This document shows, one piece after another, positions 20,017 through 25,867 of a stretch of 64,000 bases of DNA. Position 1 is the stretch's first letter; every line of letters begins with the position of its first letter. Under the pieces are notes generated by a model. The model ran no database searches. It saw only the letters and a list, made by a program, of their open reading frames with translations, and was not told where the DNA came from. The translations under genes and the position numbers were made by a program. Source of the DNA: Xanthomarina sp. F1114 (GTDB taxonomy: Bacteria > Bacteroidota > Bacteroidia > Flavobacteriales > Flavobacteriaceae); contig NZ_JAPMLL010000006.1 in the NCBI RefSeq assembly GCF_026410255.1, positions 124,001-188,000 on the forward strand, given 5' to 3'.

Positions 20017-21927
20017 ATGACAAAAGGAAATATTAATGTTTCGGTAGAAAATATCTTCCCATTAATTAAAAAATTCCTGTATAGCGATCACGAAATCTTT
20101 TTACGTGAGTTAATTAGTAACGCTACAGATGCCACTTTAAAGCTGAAACATTTAACAAGTATTGGCGAAGCTTCGGTTGAATATGGTAATCCGAAAATTG
20201 AAATTAAAATCGATAAAGAAGGTAAAAAACTTCATATAATCGATCAAGGTTTAGGAATGACAGCTGATGAAGTTGAAAAATACATCAACCAGATTGCATT
20301 TTCTGGCGCAGAAGAATTTCTAGACAAATATAAAGATTCTGGAAAAGACTCTGGAATTATCGGTCATTTTGGTCTTGGTTTTTACTCAGCTTTTATGGTT
20401 GCAGAAAAAGTAGAAATTATAACCAAATCTTTTAAAGATGAACCGGCAGCGCATTGGACATGCGACGGAAGTCCTGAGTTTACTTTAGAAGCTCATGATA
20501 AAACGGATAGAGGAACAGAAATAATTCTTCATATAGCTGAAGATTCTACAGAGTTTTTAGAAGAAGCAAGAATTAACGAATTGCTTATTAAGTATAACAA
20601 ATTTATGCCTATTCCAATTAAATTTGGAACTAAAGAAGTAAACGATCCAGATTTTACACCTAAAACAACTAAAGACAAAGACGGCAAGGAAACTACAGAG
20701 CCGCATAAACAAATAATGGTTGATAATATTATTAATAATCCAAATCCAGCTTGGACCAAACAGCCAACAGAATTAAAAGAGGAGGATTATAATGGTTTCT
20801 ATAGAGAATTGTACCCAATGCAATTTGAAGAACCTTTATTTCATATTCATTTAAATGTTGATTATCCGTTTAATTTAACAGGAATCTTGTATTTCCCGAA
20901 GATGACAAACGATTTGAATCTTCAGAAGGACAAAATTCAGTTATACCAAAATCAGGTTTATGTAACCGATAATGTAGAAGGTATTGTTCCAGAATTTTTA
21001 ACCATGTTACGTGGTGTTATTGATTCGCCAGACATTCCACTAAACGTATCTCGTTCTTATTTACAAGCTGATGGTGCTGTTAAAAAGATTTCATCTTATA
21101 TCACCAGAAAAGTTGCAGATAAATTAAAATCTTTATTCAATGAAAACAGAGAAGATTTTGAAGCAAAATGGAACGATATTAAAATAGTAATTGAGTATGG
21201 AATGCTTTCAGAAGATAAATTCTTTGAAAAAGCAGATGCTTTTGCTTTATATCCAACAGTTGATGGAACCTATTATACCTATGAGGAGCTTTTTAATAAA
21301 ATAAAAGCTAATCAGACAGATAAAGACGGAAAATTAGTAATTCTTTATGCTTCAAATGAAGATTCTCAACACAGTTATATAGAAGCTGCTAAAGCTAAAG
21401 GTTACGAGGTTTTATTATTAGACTCTCCAATTATAAGCCATTTAATGCAGAAATTAGAGTCTACTAAAGAGAATATTACGTTTGCCAGAGTTGATGCAGA
21501 TCATGTAGATAATTTAATTAAGAAAGAAGACACTAAGATTTCTAAATTAACTGAAGAACAACAAACAGAATTGGAAACACTTTTAAAAGAAGTAATTCCT
21601 GCTGAAAAGTTCTCTGTACAATTAGAAACTATGGATAGTTCTTCTACTCCGTTTATGATTACCCAACCAGAGTTTATGCGTAGAATGAAAGAAATGCAAC
21701 AAACTGGTGGTGGAGGTATGTTTGGAATGGGTAATATGCCAGACATGTATAACTTGGTCGTAAATACAAATTCAGATTTAGTTAGTGAAATTTTAGCTAC
21801 TAAAACCAAGAAAAAACAAGAACGTTTAATTACGCAGAGTTTAGATTTAGCCAGATTGTCTCAAGGACTTCTAAAAGGTGAAGAACTAACTAATTTTATT
21901 AAACGTAGTTACGAAATGATAAAGTAA
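20017..21927 (+). CDS. htpG: Molecular chaperone HtpG (Hsp90)
   Basis: 636 residues. The GHKL ATPase N domain (about 1-215) shows ELISNATDATLKL, DQGLGMTADEVEKYINQIA and GHFGLGFYSAFMVA, the nucleotide lid and glycine motifs. The middle domain (about 230-480) has NVSRSYLQADGAVKK with the conserved Arg. A C-terminal dimerisation domain follows, with a Met/Gly-rich stretch near residues 555-575. It refolds and holds client proteins under stress. A small palindrome sits in the leader, but no TAnnTTTG box is seen, which would fit alternative regulation. A hairpin terminator follows. Confidence 0.97.
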   Translation: MTKGNINVSVENIFPLIKKFLYSDHEIFLRELISNATDATLKLKHLTSIGEASVEYGNPKIEIKIDKEGKKLHIIDQGLGMTADEVEKYINQIAFSGAEEFLDKYKDSGKDSGIIGHFGLGFYSAFMVAEKVEIITKSFKDEPAAHWTCDGSPEFTLEAHDKTDRGTEIILHIAEDSTEFLEEARINELLIKYNKFMPIPIKFGTKEVNDPDFTPKTTKDKDGKETTEPHKQIMVDNIINNPNPAWTKQPTELKEEDYNGFYRELYPMQFEEPLFHIHLNVDYPFNLTGILYFPKMTNDLNLQKDKIQLYQNQVYVTDNVEGIVPEFLTMLRGVIDSPDIPLNVSRSYLQADGAVKKISSYITRKVADKLKSLFNENREDFEAKWNDIKIVIEYGMLSEDKFFEKADAFALYPTVDGTYYTYEELFNKIKANQTDKDGKLVILYASNEDSQHSYIEAAKAKGYEVLLLDSPIISHLMQKLESTKENITFARVDADHVDNLIKKEDTKISKLTEEQQTELETLLKEVIPAEKFSVQLETMDSSSTPFMITQPEFMRRMKEMQQTGGGGMFGMGNMPDMYNLVVNTNSDLVSEILATKTKKKQERLITQSLDLARLSQGLLKGEELTNFIKRSYEMIK

Positions 21928-21984
21928 AAACCACCTCTATTTCTTTTTAAAGAAAAAATAGAGATTATTACTAGTCTATACCAT

Positions 21985-22016
21985 AAAAACCACTTCTTAA
22001 TTGAAGTGGTTTTTTT
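21985..22016 (+). terminator. Terminator of htpG
   Basis: A 12-bp stem (21985-21996 with 22003-22014) with a 6-base loop and T run. A weaker A/T stem (CTCTATTT with AAATAGAG, 21933-21963) precedes it immediately after the htpG stop. It also faces yitT from the other strand. Confidence 0.82.
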
Positions 22017-22143
22017 ATTACTATTAAGAAGCTATTTTTCTAAAACTCTAATATCATTATTCATTAAAATACAAAAAAACAGCTGTCGCAGAAAAAGCCA
22101 TTGCTCTACAAACGAAAACAATGACTTTTGTAACTAATAGAAA

Positions 22144-23001
22144 CTAGTTTAAATCGCTATTAGATTCTAAAACAGAAATAGTAGCCTTTGGATCTATTCG
22201 ATAAATCATTTCACGTACAGTTTCTAATTTCTTAGTGTTTTTTGTTAATAATATTAGCTTACCATTAGTATCATAATGTATTAGTTTTAAAACATGGTCC
22301 GTGCATTTTTTATTTTCTAAAATAGACTCTTGAATTAATAAACTTTTAGACGAAAACACTAATAGTGTCATATTTTTCATTGCTTTATTAATAAAGTATT
22401 CTATGGTTTTACTAATAGCCACAATGGCAATTACACTATAAGCTGCCATAGTAAAATCTTCAAAAACAAAAACTCCCAAAAAGATAACAATTCCATCTAT
22501 AACTAATATTAACTGGCTATAAGGTAATTTTATTTTTGTTGCCAAAATTCTAACTAAAATATCATTCCCTCCTGTGGTAGCACCAGCTTTCATAACAATA
22601 AAAACCGACAAGCCAATAATTACTCCCCCAAATACGGAGGACACAAGAACATCTTCAATAAAAATCTTATTTCGTAATAAAGTTGAAAACACATCAATAT
22701 AAAAAGACACCAAAATCATAGAAAATGCTGTTTTTAAACCTGTTTTCACCCCTAAAACTTTAGTTCCCCATAAAAGCAAAGGAATATTTATCATTAGTGC
22801 TAAAAGACCAATAGATAGTCCTGTCAATTTATTAAGAACAATACTTAAACCAAGAATTCCTCCAGGCACAATATTATGTGGAATAATAAAAATAACATAT
22901 GTAATAGCTAATAAAGCAGAGCCTGCAAAAACCCAGGTATAGCTTTTAAGTTCTTTAAGTAGGATGTCTTTTTTTAATATGATGGTGAATCTGTTTTTCA
23001 T
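22144..23001 (-). CDS. YitT family membrane protein
   Basis: 285 residues: five to six membrane helices (about 20-205; DUF161/YitT_membrane) and a C-terminal cytoplasmic DUF2179 domain (about 210-280). The motifs GGILGLSIVLNKLTG and KAGATTGGNDILVRIL are characteristic. The function is not established; a transport role is commonly supposed. The ATG start (MKNRFTIIL) is preferred over a TTG four codons upstream. A perfect intrinsic terminator with an 8-base T run ends only 10 bp before this start, and two micro-ORFs lie further up, which suggests leader regulation. Confidence 0.88.
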   Translation of the reverse strand: MKNRFTIILKKDILLKELKSYTWVFAGSALLAITYVIFIIPHNIVPGGILGLSIVLNKLTGLSIGLLALMINIPLLLWGTKVLGVKTGLKTAFSMILVSFYIDVFSTLLRNKIFIEDVLVSSVFGGVIIGLSVFIVMKAGATTGGNDILVRILATKIKLPYSQLILVIDGIVIFLGVFVFEDFTMAAYSVIAIVAISKTIEYFINKAMKNMTLLVFSSKSLLIQESILENKKCTDHVLKLIHYDTNGKLILLTKNTKKLETVREMIYRIDPKATISVLESNSDLN

Positions 23002-23011
23002 GATATAAGGC

Positions 23012-23051
23012 AAAAAAAATCCCTTTGATTAAATAGGAATCAAAGGGATTT
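23012..23051 (-). terminator. Terminator immediately upstream of yitT
   Basis: Minus strand: a perfect 14-bp stem (23038-23051 with 23017-23030) with a 7-base loop and eight T residues, ending 10 bp before the yitT ATG. It would block read-through into yitT unless it is overcome. Confidence 0.85.
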
Positions 23052-23073
23052 AAAATTATAATATAAACTTATT

Positions 23074-23166
23074 TTACTCTCTTTGATATATAGGATTCCA
23101 CTTACACATATGTTTATGCGTTAAGTTTAAAATATTACGGACATTCATTATCTTAAATAGATTCAT
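23074..23166 (-). CDS. Micro-ORF 2 in the yitT leader (30 residues)
   Basis: ATG-started, beginning MNLFKIMNVRNILNL and ending HMCKWNPIYQRE. It is basic and contains H-x-x-C-K close to a Trp, a pattern also present in micro-ORF 1. It lies between two terminator hairpins, starting 18 bp after the first and stopping 23 bp before the second. No known family is recognised. A new internal Met gives a 24-residue alternative. Translation is unproven. Confidence 0.4.
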   Translation of the reverse strand: MNLFKIMNVRNILNLTHKHMCKWNPIYQRE

Positions 23167-23183
23167 TCTTTAATGTATTAAAT

Positions 23184-23219
23184 AAAAAAAGCGTTCTAAC
23201 TTTATAGTAGAACGCTTTT
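23184..23219 (-). terminator. Terminator between the two micro-ORFs
   Basis: Minus strand: a perfect 12-bp stem (23208-23219 with 23187-23198), a 9-base loop and seven T residues. It follows micro-ORF 1 by 27 bp and precedes micro-ORF 2. Confidence 0.85.
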
Positions 23220-23246
23220 AAATTTTGTTTAAATATATGGTACGTT

Positions 23247-23306
23247 CTAGCCTTTGGAAAATTTCCAATTCATCTTACAAATACTATGTACGCGGTTTTT
23301 TCTCAT
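23247..23306 (-). CDS. Micro-ORF 1 in the yitT leader (19 residues)
   Basis: Reads MRKNRVHSICKMNWKFSKG: 19 residues, strongly basic, ending at TAG. A promoter with both elements lies just upstream and a terminator just downstream, so a transcript of about 120-130 bases could carry only this ORF. The H-S-I-C-K-M-N-W segment resembles H-K-H-M-C-K-W-N of micro-ORF 2. I know no described family. It could be a leader peptide, a free micro-protein, or a chance ORF in a small RNA. Confidence 0.45.
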   Translation of the reverse strand: MRKNRVHSICKMNWKFSKG

Positions 23307-23316
23307 ATTGAAGGTA

Positions 23317-23351
23317 CAAAACTATAATTATTTTTTAAGCTGCATCACAAA
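23317..23351 (-). promoter_or_regulatory. Promoter for the micro-ORF/yitT leader
   Basis: Minus strand: TTTG (complement of 23348-23351), a 23-bp spacer, then TAGTTTTG (23317-23324), an exact TAnnTTTG box. The -7 box is 10 bp from the micro-ORF 1 ATG, so the RNA would have almost no leader before it. Confidence 0.65.
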
Positions 23352-23455
23352 TCTGTCATTTTTTTTAAAATTCTTTTTGAAGTACTTTTTTTAATAAACA
23401 TATATTTTTAAACTGAAAATAATCTTTCGAGAAATTAATTCATTTAAAATTCGTC

Positions 23456-23463
23456 TATCTTTG
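23456..23463 (+). promoter_or_regulatory. -7 box for the DEAD-box helicase gene
   Basis: TATCTTTG, an exact TAnnTTTG match, 16 bp upstream of the ATG. No clear -33 TTG. Confidence 0.55.
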
Positions 23464-23479
23464 TTGGAAATATATCAGC

Positions 23480-24721
23480 ATGTCATTTAAAGACTTACAA
23501 CTAATCGATCCTCTATTAAAAGCTATTGAAGAGCAAGGTTATAATACGCCTACTCAAGTTCAGCAAAAAACCATACCTTTTGTATTAGCAAAAAAAGATG
23601 TTATTACCTCAGCTCAAACTGGAACTGGAAAAACAGCTGCTTTTGCTTTGCCAATTTTGCAAATGCTTTCTAAAAACCAAGATTCCGTAAAACGAGGAAA
23701 AACTATAAAAGCATTAGTAGTAAGTCCTACCAGAGAATTAGCCTTGCAAATAGGAAATAACTTTAAAGCTTATGGACGACATACTAATTTACGTACAACG
23801 GTTGTTTTTGGAGGAGCTCCTGTAGAACCGCAAATAGACGTTTTAACCAAAGGTGTAGATATTTTAGTTGCTACTCCTGGGCGTTTAATCGATTTACAAA
23901 AACAAGAAGTTATTAATCTTGATCAGGTAGAAATATTGGTTTTAGACGAAGCAGATTTAATGCTAGACATGGGGTTTATAGACAATGTTAAACATATAGT
24001 TAGCTTATGTCCTGAAAAAAAACAAATTTTATTGTTTTCTGCCACCATGCCTTTTAAGGTAGAACAATTGGCTAATACTATATTAAAAAGTCCAGAACGC
24101 ATAGAAGTTTCTGCAGCTTTATCTGATTCTAATAACATAGGGCAAGTTTTATATTATGTACCAAAACGCAATAAAATTGAACTGTGTTTACATCTATTAA
24201 GAAACGAAATAAAAGGGAGTATTCTAATTTTTAGACGCACTAAATTTGGAGTTGATAAATTAGAAAAAACTTTAATAAAGAATGGTTATCAGGTGGAAAC
24301 GCTTCATGGCGACAAATCTCAAACCGATAGACAAACTGCTTTAAAAAAGTTTAAAAGCGGACAAGTAAATATTCTTATTGCTACAGACGTTGCTGCTCGA
24401 GGCATTGATATTAACGAATTAGATGCTGTAATTAATTTCGATTTACCAAACATTCCGGAAACCTATGTTCATAGAATTGGTAGAACTGGGCGTGCTGGAA
24501 ATTCAGGGATGTCTTACTCTTTTTGTAGCGCAGATGAGAAAGCCTATGTGCAAAGCATTCAACAGTTGCTACAAATTCAGATTCCTGTAGAAGAAAACCA
24601 CCCATATCCTTTAGATCCTGCAGCAAAAGCAATTATTCATAAATCTAAACAAACAGGAAGCAAACATAAAAAAGGAAGGAAGAGTGCAGCTTCCAAAAAG
24701 AAGAAAAAACGTTGGTATTAA
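23480..24721 (+). CDS. DEAD-box RNA helicase, RhlE type
   Basis: 413 residues with the complete helicase core: Q motif, motif I AQTGTGKTAAFALPI, Ia PTRELALQIG, Ib TPGRLI, motif II DEAD, motif III SAT, motif V TDVAARGIDI and motif VI HRIGRTGRAG. The last 25 residues are a lysine-rich tail (KHKKGRKSAASKKKKKR) typical of RhlE-like enzymes that remodel ribosomal RNA or act in the cold. A -7 box sits close to the start. A small palindrome overlaps the stop codon but lacks a T run. Confidence 0.94.
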   Translation: MSFKDLQLIDPLLKAIEEQGYNTPTQVQQKTIPFVLAKKDVITSAQTGTGKTAAFALPILQMLSKNQDSVKRGKTIKALVVSPTRELALQIGNNFKAYGRHTNLRTTVVFGGAPVEPQIDVLTKGVDILVATPGRLIDLQKQEVINLDQVEILVLDEADLMLDMGFIDNVKHIVSLCPEKKQILLFSATMPFKVEQLANTILKSPERIEVSAALSDSNNIGQVLYYVPKRNKIELCLHLLRNEIKGSILIFRRTKFGVDKLEKTLIKNGYQVETLHGDKSQTDRQTALKKFKSGQVNILIATDVAARGIDINELDAVINFDLPNIPETYVHRIGRTGRAGNSGMSYSFCSADEKAYVQSIQQLLQIQIPVEENHPYPLDPAAKAIIHKSKQTGSKHKKGRKSAASKKKKKRWY

Positions 24722-24886
24722 TTTATACCAAACTATCAAGTCATTTTATTTAGAACCATTTATTTCAATAAGAAATAAATCTCTTAACACAGACATTCAA
24801 TTTTAGAGTATTTTAATCTTTTAAACAATTCATTTTGTGTTAGAATCTGTATCTTTAAAGTATAATTTATACCACCACTTTAATTT

Positions 24887-25867
24887 ATGTGTAGACAAGC
24901 TGTCTTACTTTTATTTTTATTTTCGTCGGTTATAGGTTTTTCTCAAACCAGAATCATCGATTCTCAAACCAAATATCCTGTTTCTTACGCTACAATTTCA
25001 TTTGGTAATGGTCAAGGTTTTTTTGCAGACGATGAAGGTGTCTTTGTCTTCACCAAAAAAATATACCCAGATATAGACTCCTTATTTATATCTGCTTTAG
25101 GCTTTAAAGATTTAAATATTTCTTCTAAAAACTTACCAAAAACGCTTGAATTAACTCCTTTTATAGACGAGTTGGATGAAGTAGTTGTACGTGCTAAATT
25201 AGATAGAAAATATAAAGAAGAAAGTATCGAACCTTATTTGGATGACGATTATTATAAGTGTTGGCTTCCAACTATAGAATCTGAAATAGCTGTATATTTT
25301 AAAAATTCAGATCCAAAATTGAAAAAACTTTCTGAAATTCATTTTCCCATTGCATTAGAATCTGTAGATTGGAAGAAAAGGCATAAATCGAATGCTGATA
25401 AGAAACCTTTTTCAACATTATTTAAAGTGAATATCTATCAAAATGAAAATGGCTTTCCGGGAAAACCTTTACTCTACCAAAACATTGTATTTAATGCTAC
25501 AGAAAAAGATGGAGACGAATATACTCTAGATGTATCTGCTTATGATATTTTAATTCCAAAGTCTGGCTTATTTGTGTCACTTCAAGTCTTAGGTTATGCA
25601 GATGACGCAGGAAAATTATTGCCAAATAAAAAGTACAAAGAGATTAAAAGCAGAGGACAAACAGTAAAGATTCCAACCAATTTTAGACCTTTACTTCCTT
25701 TTACTGACGAAATATCAGAAAGTAAAACTTTTATTAAACGTGTGTTTTTACACAGAAACCAATGGATTCAATTTAAAAAAGGCAATATTAACGATTCTAG
25801 TTTATTAAAAGCTGGATTAAACAATTACGGAATGGGAATAACATTTAAAGTATATAAAGATGAATAA
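24887..25867 (+). CDS. Secreted protein with a carboxypeptidase-like regulatory domain
   Basis: 326 residues. A signal peptide (about 1-19, ending GFSQ) is followed by a CarboxypepD_reg-like beta-sandwich (about 20-105: RIIDSQTKYPVSYATI, ADDEGVFVF, LFISALGFKDL, DELDEVVVRA), a domain that often precedes TonB-dependent receptors. No receptor barrel follows, and the remaining 220 residues are not recognised. It probably acts in the periplasm or outer membrane. The next gene overlaps its end by 8 bp, so the pair is translationally coupled. Confidence 0.78.
   Translation: MCRQAVLLLFLFSSVIGFSQTRIIDSQTKYPVSYATISFGNGQGFFADDEGVFVFTKKIYPDIDSLFISALGFKDLNISSKNLPKTLELTPFIDELDEVVVRAKLDRKYKEESIEPYLDDDYYKCWLPTIESEIAVYFKNSDPKLKKLSEIHFPIALESVDWKKRHKSNADKKPFSTLFKVNIYQNENGFPGKPLLYQNIVFNATEKDGDEYTLDVSAYDILIPKSGLFVSLQVLGYADDAGKLLPNKKYKEIKSRGQTVKIPTNFRPLLPFTDEISESKTFIKRVFLHRNQWIQFKKGNINDSSLLKAGLNNYGMGITFKVYKDE

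Follow-up and report, generated by a model that had tools for sequence, protein, structure and literature searches.

The gene at positions 22144-23001 of the minus strand of the window (the whole 64,000-nucleotide stretch of DNA that was analysed) codes for a 285-residue YitT_membrane protein (PF02588, E 5.9e-48), with its ATG at 23001. The product has a weak DUF2179 tail (E 0.018, under the cut-off). Matches to relatives of solved structure were marginal, the best being an organic-anion transporter (E 0.0029), and they were not used. The next gene downstream of yitT, in convergent orientation, is htpG, and a DEAD-box helicase gene lies upstream of the yitT leader, in divergent orientation. 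A strong terminator-like hairpin followed by a T run is found at 21985-22014 of the plus strand, between the convergent htpG and yitT genes.

The region in front of yitT harbours, in minus-strand order, a -7 box, a first short upstream ORF (uORF1, 19 residues), terminator 1, a second one (uORF2, 30 residues), terminator 2 and the yitT gene itself. All these elements had been listed in an earlier note on this DNA, and all are present. The box, TAGTTTTG (23317-23324), matches exactly the flavobacterial consensus TAnnTTTG, which occupies positions -12 to -5 (PMC9723704), and would place the transcription start near 23312, with a 5' UTR of approximately 6 nt. uORF1 (23247-23306) codes for the putative leader peptide MRKNRVHSICKMNWKFSKG, whose codon 10 is a Cys codon (TGT, 23277-23279). 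A small hairpin called P1, TTGGA-N5-TCCAA (23254-23268), is located between this codon and the stop codon. The latter begins the segment TAGAACGT (23242-23249), the 5' strand of a candidate antiterminator 1 whose partner, GCGTTCTA (23215-23208), is also the 5' arm of terminator 1 (23187-23219, a 12-bp core of -14.4 kcal/mol followed by a T run). The second unit is organized similarly, with uORF2 (23074-23166) coding for MNLFKIMNVRNILNLTHKHMCKWNPIYQRE, a TGT Cys codon at 23104-23106, the 5' strand of a candidate antiterminator 2, ATCAAAGAGA, in the last uORF2 codons (23078-23087, with its partner at 23048-23039), and terminator 2 (23017-23051, 14 bp, -15.8 kcal/mol), also followed by a T run.

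A pattern scan of positions 20500-25500 returned eight terminator-like sites versus 1.9 (sd 1.6) expected; terminator 2 is listed among them, and terminator 1 is absent from the list. A scan for E. coli-type promoters was uninformative (21 sites versus 24.4 expected). Unlike that scan, the TAnnTTTG box is informative, because every one of the 19 distinct loci described below has it ahead of its first uORF. It is located 18 nt from the ATG of uORF1 in 17 of the 18 loci with two units, and 16 nt in locus L044. Between uORF1 and yitT, the exact box was found in none of these 18 loci, and the peptides are conserved, contrary to what the earlier note had named as refuting its reading (an independent yitT promoter and no conservation of either peptide).

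The leader arrangement is more than a chance occurrence, as the yitT genes of five genera, 19 distinct loci in total, are preceded by it. The layout of promoter, short ORF, intrinsic terminator and gene was found in all of them, and 18 loci harbour both units, with 16 distinct unit-1 sequences. uORF1 homologues are 19 or 20 residues long (18 of the 19 loci), and those of uORF2, found in every locus, range from 26 to 32 residues. In the remaining locus, L078 (genome G330), only the second unit is present and the promoter box directly precedes uORF2, a natural one-gate version of the leader. Close yitT orthologues (82-86% identity) are present in the genome under study and in five more of the eight genomes of its genus. 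Across the family, orthologues at E 1e-40 or better were found in 8 of 397 genomes, representing 5 of 237 genera, and in five named records, three of which are from Ulvibacter. Three other genera were searched genus-wide, and yitT was identified in 1 of 4, 5 of 13 and 4 of 7 of their genomes, respectively.

The first set comprised 13 distinct leaders, after four copies (L043, L045, L046 and L047) had been set aside and their identity checked. The genus-wide searches added six leaders (L141-L146) from two genera already represented in the set. These six were fetched after the model described below had been formed; in all of them, the two units and their pairings are present and the box is at 18 nt. 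By eye, no consistent yitT neighbours were shared among eight loci; as the neighbours vary between lineages, the leader travels with yitT. A search for the exact core pattern with up to three mismatches in 249 genomes, which included one other member of the genus, devoid of yitT, yielded hits only in the genome under study. With a degenerate pattern of the Ile-Cys-Lys type, 20 places were retrieved from the 397 family genomes, corresponding to six yitT leaders, one ilv-type leader (L137) and 13 others. Examination of 12 of these 13 (all except L134) revealed none with such a leader.

A feature that comes in addition to the earlier description is the complementarity between the 3' end of each uORF and the 5' arm of its own terminator, which was found in all 37 units (25 of 25 in the first set and 12 of 12 in the second). 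The pairing core starts at the stop codon in unit 1 (UAGAACG with CGUUCUA), and it is mostly within the last uORF2 codons in unit 2 (AUCAAAG with CUUUGAU). The uORF1 stop codon is TAG in 18 of 18 loci and the uORF2 stop codons are mixed (13 TAA, 4 TAG and 2 TGA; n=19), as expected if RNA pairing were to fix the stop codon in unit 1 only. Duplex energies compared with those of shuffles that keep dinucleotides gave p values between 0.001 and 0.06 per unit for the first 25 units, which are not independent of one another. In the first set, 92.9% of the cells are paired for P1 together with antiterminator 1, versus 30-58% with the partner slid along the sequence, and 86.0% for antiterminator 2, versus 29-52%. 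Covariation shuffles were not significant for either antiterminator, as the changes are mostly one-sided, with the pair kept by wobble. Each terminator has two-sided changes in two pairs, a level that 13 and 6 shuffles out of 500 attained; in the first of these two tests, one slid control equals the number observed.

We built a covariance model from 12 yitT leaders and ran it on the 397 family genomes. In 78 of these it gave a total of 89 matches (E 0.01 or better), the seven best of which are yitT leaders from the training set. We read 28 of the 82 weaker matches, namely those with loci plus five hand-picked ones, and identified 11 leaders of ilvD or ilvE genes, together with 17 gene-end terminators or unrelated sequences. 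A twelfth ilv leader, L137, came from the pattern search. The ilvD and ilvE families are the best-scoring ones for the genes at L087 (a cut-off fragment, below threshold) and L088 (above threshold), one gene each, and the remaining ilv genes were named by their likeness to those two. The ilv leader peptides are rich in Ile and Val, the amino acids of their own pathway, e.g. MKKQILNIVSIIVIVIISQR, and the terminator is in the same place as in the yitT leaders. Tandem ilv leaders, with a second Ile/Val-rich uORF and a second terminator, were observed in 5 of 12 cases (L088, L094, L116, L119 and L137). The first 30 nt of uORF1 are identical to those of ilv leaders at up to 27 positions (L075, L145 and L146 with L119). 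Of 289 background gene starts, none matches the ilv starts as well as do nine of the uORF1 sequences, which come from two genera; for the other nine, one to four background starts are as good or better. These similarities support a common origin of the yitT and ilv leaders, short of proving it, because the covariance model itself selects for similarity. In the genome under study (G000, listed as 99.87% complete), no match to the ilvD signature PF00920 was found; this bacterium is perhaps devoid of branched-chain amino acid synthesis.

Because its parts recur in relatives, the competing pairings are present in every unit, the uORF1 stop codon is always TAG and the ilv leaders share the layout, we propose that the yitT leader very probably consists of two classical translation-dependent transcription attenuators in series. 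From these comparisons we infer that the leader is transcribed, its uORFs translated and its terminators conditionally read through. Transcription would start about 6 nt upstream of uORF1. Given the complementarity found in all units, a ribosome finishing a uORF would hide the antiterminator strand. Thus, on reaching the uORF1 stop codon it would cover this strand, letting terminator 1 form and transcription end. With a ribosome stalled further upstream, the antiterminator strand would be the first to capture the 5' arm of the terminator, and the polymerase would continue into uORF2, where the same decision would be repeated with terminator 2 before yitT. Conditional read-through of two serial terminators had been suggested in the earlier note, and the recurrence of both units, the pairings and the ilv layout support it well.

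The geometry of these events was explored by masked folding with a ribosome stalled at the last Cys codon and covering 12 nt from the A-site codon, an assumed value. In 24 of 24 Cys-bearing units, the antiterminator is already formed at a stage when the terminator still lacks its 3' arm, with the highest pair probability at 0.99-1.00. With the ribosome placed at the stop codon, the antiterminator cannot form, by construction of the mask. At equilibrium, the complete terminator prevails (0.87 to 1.00) whether the ribosome is stalled or not, so that read-through would have to be kinetic.

P1 is a possible pause hairpin, since together with the step downstream of it, it resembles the pause hairpins of classical attenuators. 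The step in question, C|G, is present 10 nt past P1 in 17 of 18 uORF1 sequences. In one fixed register, 76 of 90 P1 cells are paired; by eye, pairing in L075 and L144-L146 is better after a one-base shift of the register. Whole-arm shuffles reached the observed value in 49 of 10000 cases with all 18 rows and in 3879 of 20000 when just the seven different pairs of arms were used. The test is thus passed with all rows and failed with distinct arms, making the case for a real hairpin only suggestive.

The signal that would stall the ribosome was sought in the composition of the peptides. The reading frames are open from start to stop in all loci. Within the genus, pN/pS for uORF1 is 0.66 in frame versus 0.88 and 0.83 off frame, and the differences are distributed evenly among codon positions (45/50/47). 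For uORF2, compared among four members of the genus, they show a third-position excess (47/55/69). The coding signal therefore appears weak in uORF1 and better in uORF2. Among the uORF1 sequences, 17 of 18 have Cys at codon 10 (codon 11 in L044), and 18 of 19 uORF2 sequences encode a Cys somewhere, L006 having none, so that each of the 19 loci has Cys in at least one uORF. In L146, codon 10 of uORF1 codes for Ser (TCT), and three relatives of the same genus have TGT. Most Cys codons are 9 to 12 codons ahead of the uORF stop codons. When the first 13 loci are compared with the proteins of the window (0.73% Cys), no residue is as enriched as Cys in either peptide, 7.5-fold in uORF1 and 7.1-fold in uORF2. 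Speaking against a Cys signal, uORF1 has a single Cys codon rather than a run, the enrichment in the first set relative to base composition is only 2.3-fold (31 codons versus 13.2), and other residues, namely Met, His, Arg, Asn and Lys, are raised as well. Because Cys ranks first in both peptides, we favour cysteine limitation as the stall signal and give it about an even chance; scarcity of charged tRNA-Cys would then stall the ribosome at the Cys codons of both peptides.

Two other amino acid signals were considered and rejected. The earlier note had described a motif shared by both peptides, H-x(1,2)-[IM]-C-K with a nearby Trp. It holds in the genome under study and does not extend to the relatives; over all the loci, Trp is present in 13 of 18 uORF1 but in only 1 of 19 uORF2 sequences. 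The uORF1 Trp is in part accounted for by the UUGG arm of P1, and Trp was discarded as the signal. Ile and Val were discarded too, as the runs characteristic of ilv leaders are absent.

The tandem attenuators might instead report a general slowdown of translation, or the supply of another amino acid, rather than Cys in particular. Any ribosome held short of the stop codon would free the antiterminator, several other residues are raised, and two uORFs (uORF1 of L146 and uORF2 of L006) lack Cys. Nevertheless, no locus is devoid of Cys in both peptides, where this residue is top-ranked, and Trp is almost confined to uORF1. We regard this version as unlikely. Distinctly less probable is one in which stalling of the tandem attenuators is caused by the nascent peptide itself, sensing a small molecule or a ribosome-targeting drug, with Ile-Cys-Lys at codons 9 to 11 of uORF1 as the arrest motif. 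Cys10 is invariant and Ile9 and Lys11 are nearly so in 12 aligned uORF1 sequences, and uORF1 has a single Cys codon, with no Cys run. Mycoplasma YitT genes are also among those mutated in strains selected with macrolides or pristinamycin, although their role is unproven (PMC10240068, PMC13148045). Arguing against an arrest peptide, uORF2 has no fixed motif and shares little with uORF1 but Cys, and the relatives by layout are the amino acid attenuators of ilv genes.

Readings that dispense with the attenuators fare worse. A riboswitch, a T-box or a protein-binding leader that would work the terminators, the uORFs being incidental, could account for a long leader with terminators, but conservation is found in the uORFs and terminators without a separate domain. 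Moreover, a search for riboswitches, T-boxes and other cis-regulatory RNAs found no Rfam family at its gathering score within the leader, the best match at the E-value threshold being GibS (30.8 bits versus a gathering score of 115). We consider this explanation very improbable. Still less tenable is the suggestion of the earlier note that the micro-ORFs encode free-standing microproteins of a new family, whose location before yitT would then be fortuitous: start, frame and several residues are kept across five genera, so that both peptides are conserved, but in part through RNA constraint, as their conserved tails track the pairing, and, in addition, uORF1 is absent from L078, the lengths of uORF2 vary, the codon-position signal of uORF1 is flat and none of the searches made turned up the uORFs apart from yitT.

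With tandem attenuators as the preferred reading, the yitT leader would be a device of a familiar type employed in a new context, most likely to report on cysteine. Leader-peptide attenuation of amino acid operons has been described in general terms in Flavobacterium psychrophilum (PMC9723704), and leader-like short ORFs in Bacteroides thetaiotaomicron (PMC7366714). The ilvD/ilvE leaders have a uORF1 of similar length and start, the same terminator placement and, in the tandem cases, a second unit; they differ by their Ile/Val runs and the biosynthesis genes that follow, in contrast with single Cys codons and yitT here. In Salmonella, the mgtCBR leader also contains a pair of short ORFs and two serial attenuators, but their signals differ, ATP and proline (PMC3641672), whereas the two yitT units seem to carry the same codon, Cys. 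For mycobacterial short ORFs with Cys codons ahead of regulated genes, a response to cysteine supply has been proposed or reported (PMC1262725, PMC9031893); Cys-codon leaders of mycobacteria are also described in PMC13236596. The leaders of the first two accounts have Cys runs and precede cys genes, and in one of them no conserved terminator hairpins were found (PMC1262725); in contrast, the yitT leader has single Cys codons and two intrinsic terminators, with yitT downstream. In the literature searched, most subscription journals being outside its scope, neither the work on YitT nor that on Cys leaders or leader-peptide attenuators in Bacteroidetes or Flavobacterium included a report of this system. 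The same apparent signal placed twice in series raises the question of why one gene should be gated twice. The resemblance to ilv leaders, for its part, suggests that the specificity of attenuators can be rewritten through a few codons on a fixed chassis.

As for YitT, the literature searched gives no tested function for the 'YitT family'. A leader hinting at an amino acid is thus a rare clue to an unstudied family, and a direct and cheap route to YitT physiology. Tentatively, the YitT clade described here may serve cysteine or sulfur acquisition or uptake, a suggestion that comes from the leader. A more elaborate scenario starts from the duplication of an ilv-type attenuator, whose Ile/Val codons would have given way to Cys codons, so that a double-gated cysteine-limitation switch came to precede an uncharacterised membrane protein; the YitT clade would then transport cysteine, cystine or some other sulfur compound. 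We regard this scenario as doubtful; were it true, it would provide the first physiological assignment for a PF02588 protein. Taken as a whole, we consider our best explanation likely, with the tandem attenuators at its core, an even chance for the Cys signal and a more tentative role for YitT.

Finally, we read by eye the six PALP loci of the genome under study, and none harbours a uORF with a terminator. The two genes nearest to cysK/cysM are those of L109, which scores as a cysteate synthase, and L111, which is under all cut-offs. Because of the assignment of L109, the missing leader on genes resembling those for cysteine synthases is weak evidence either way, and the true cysteine synthase genes may perhaps be outside the six loci. 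L109 (G000:C52:92073-92969) is above the NCBIfam cut-off for cysteate synthase, an enzyme that consumes sulfur amino acids and might thereby bear on cysteine demand.
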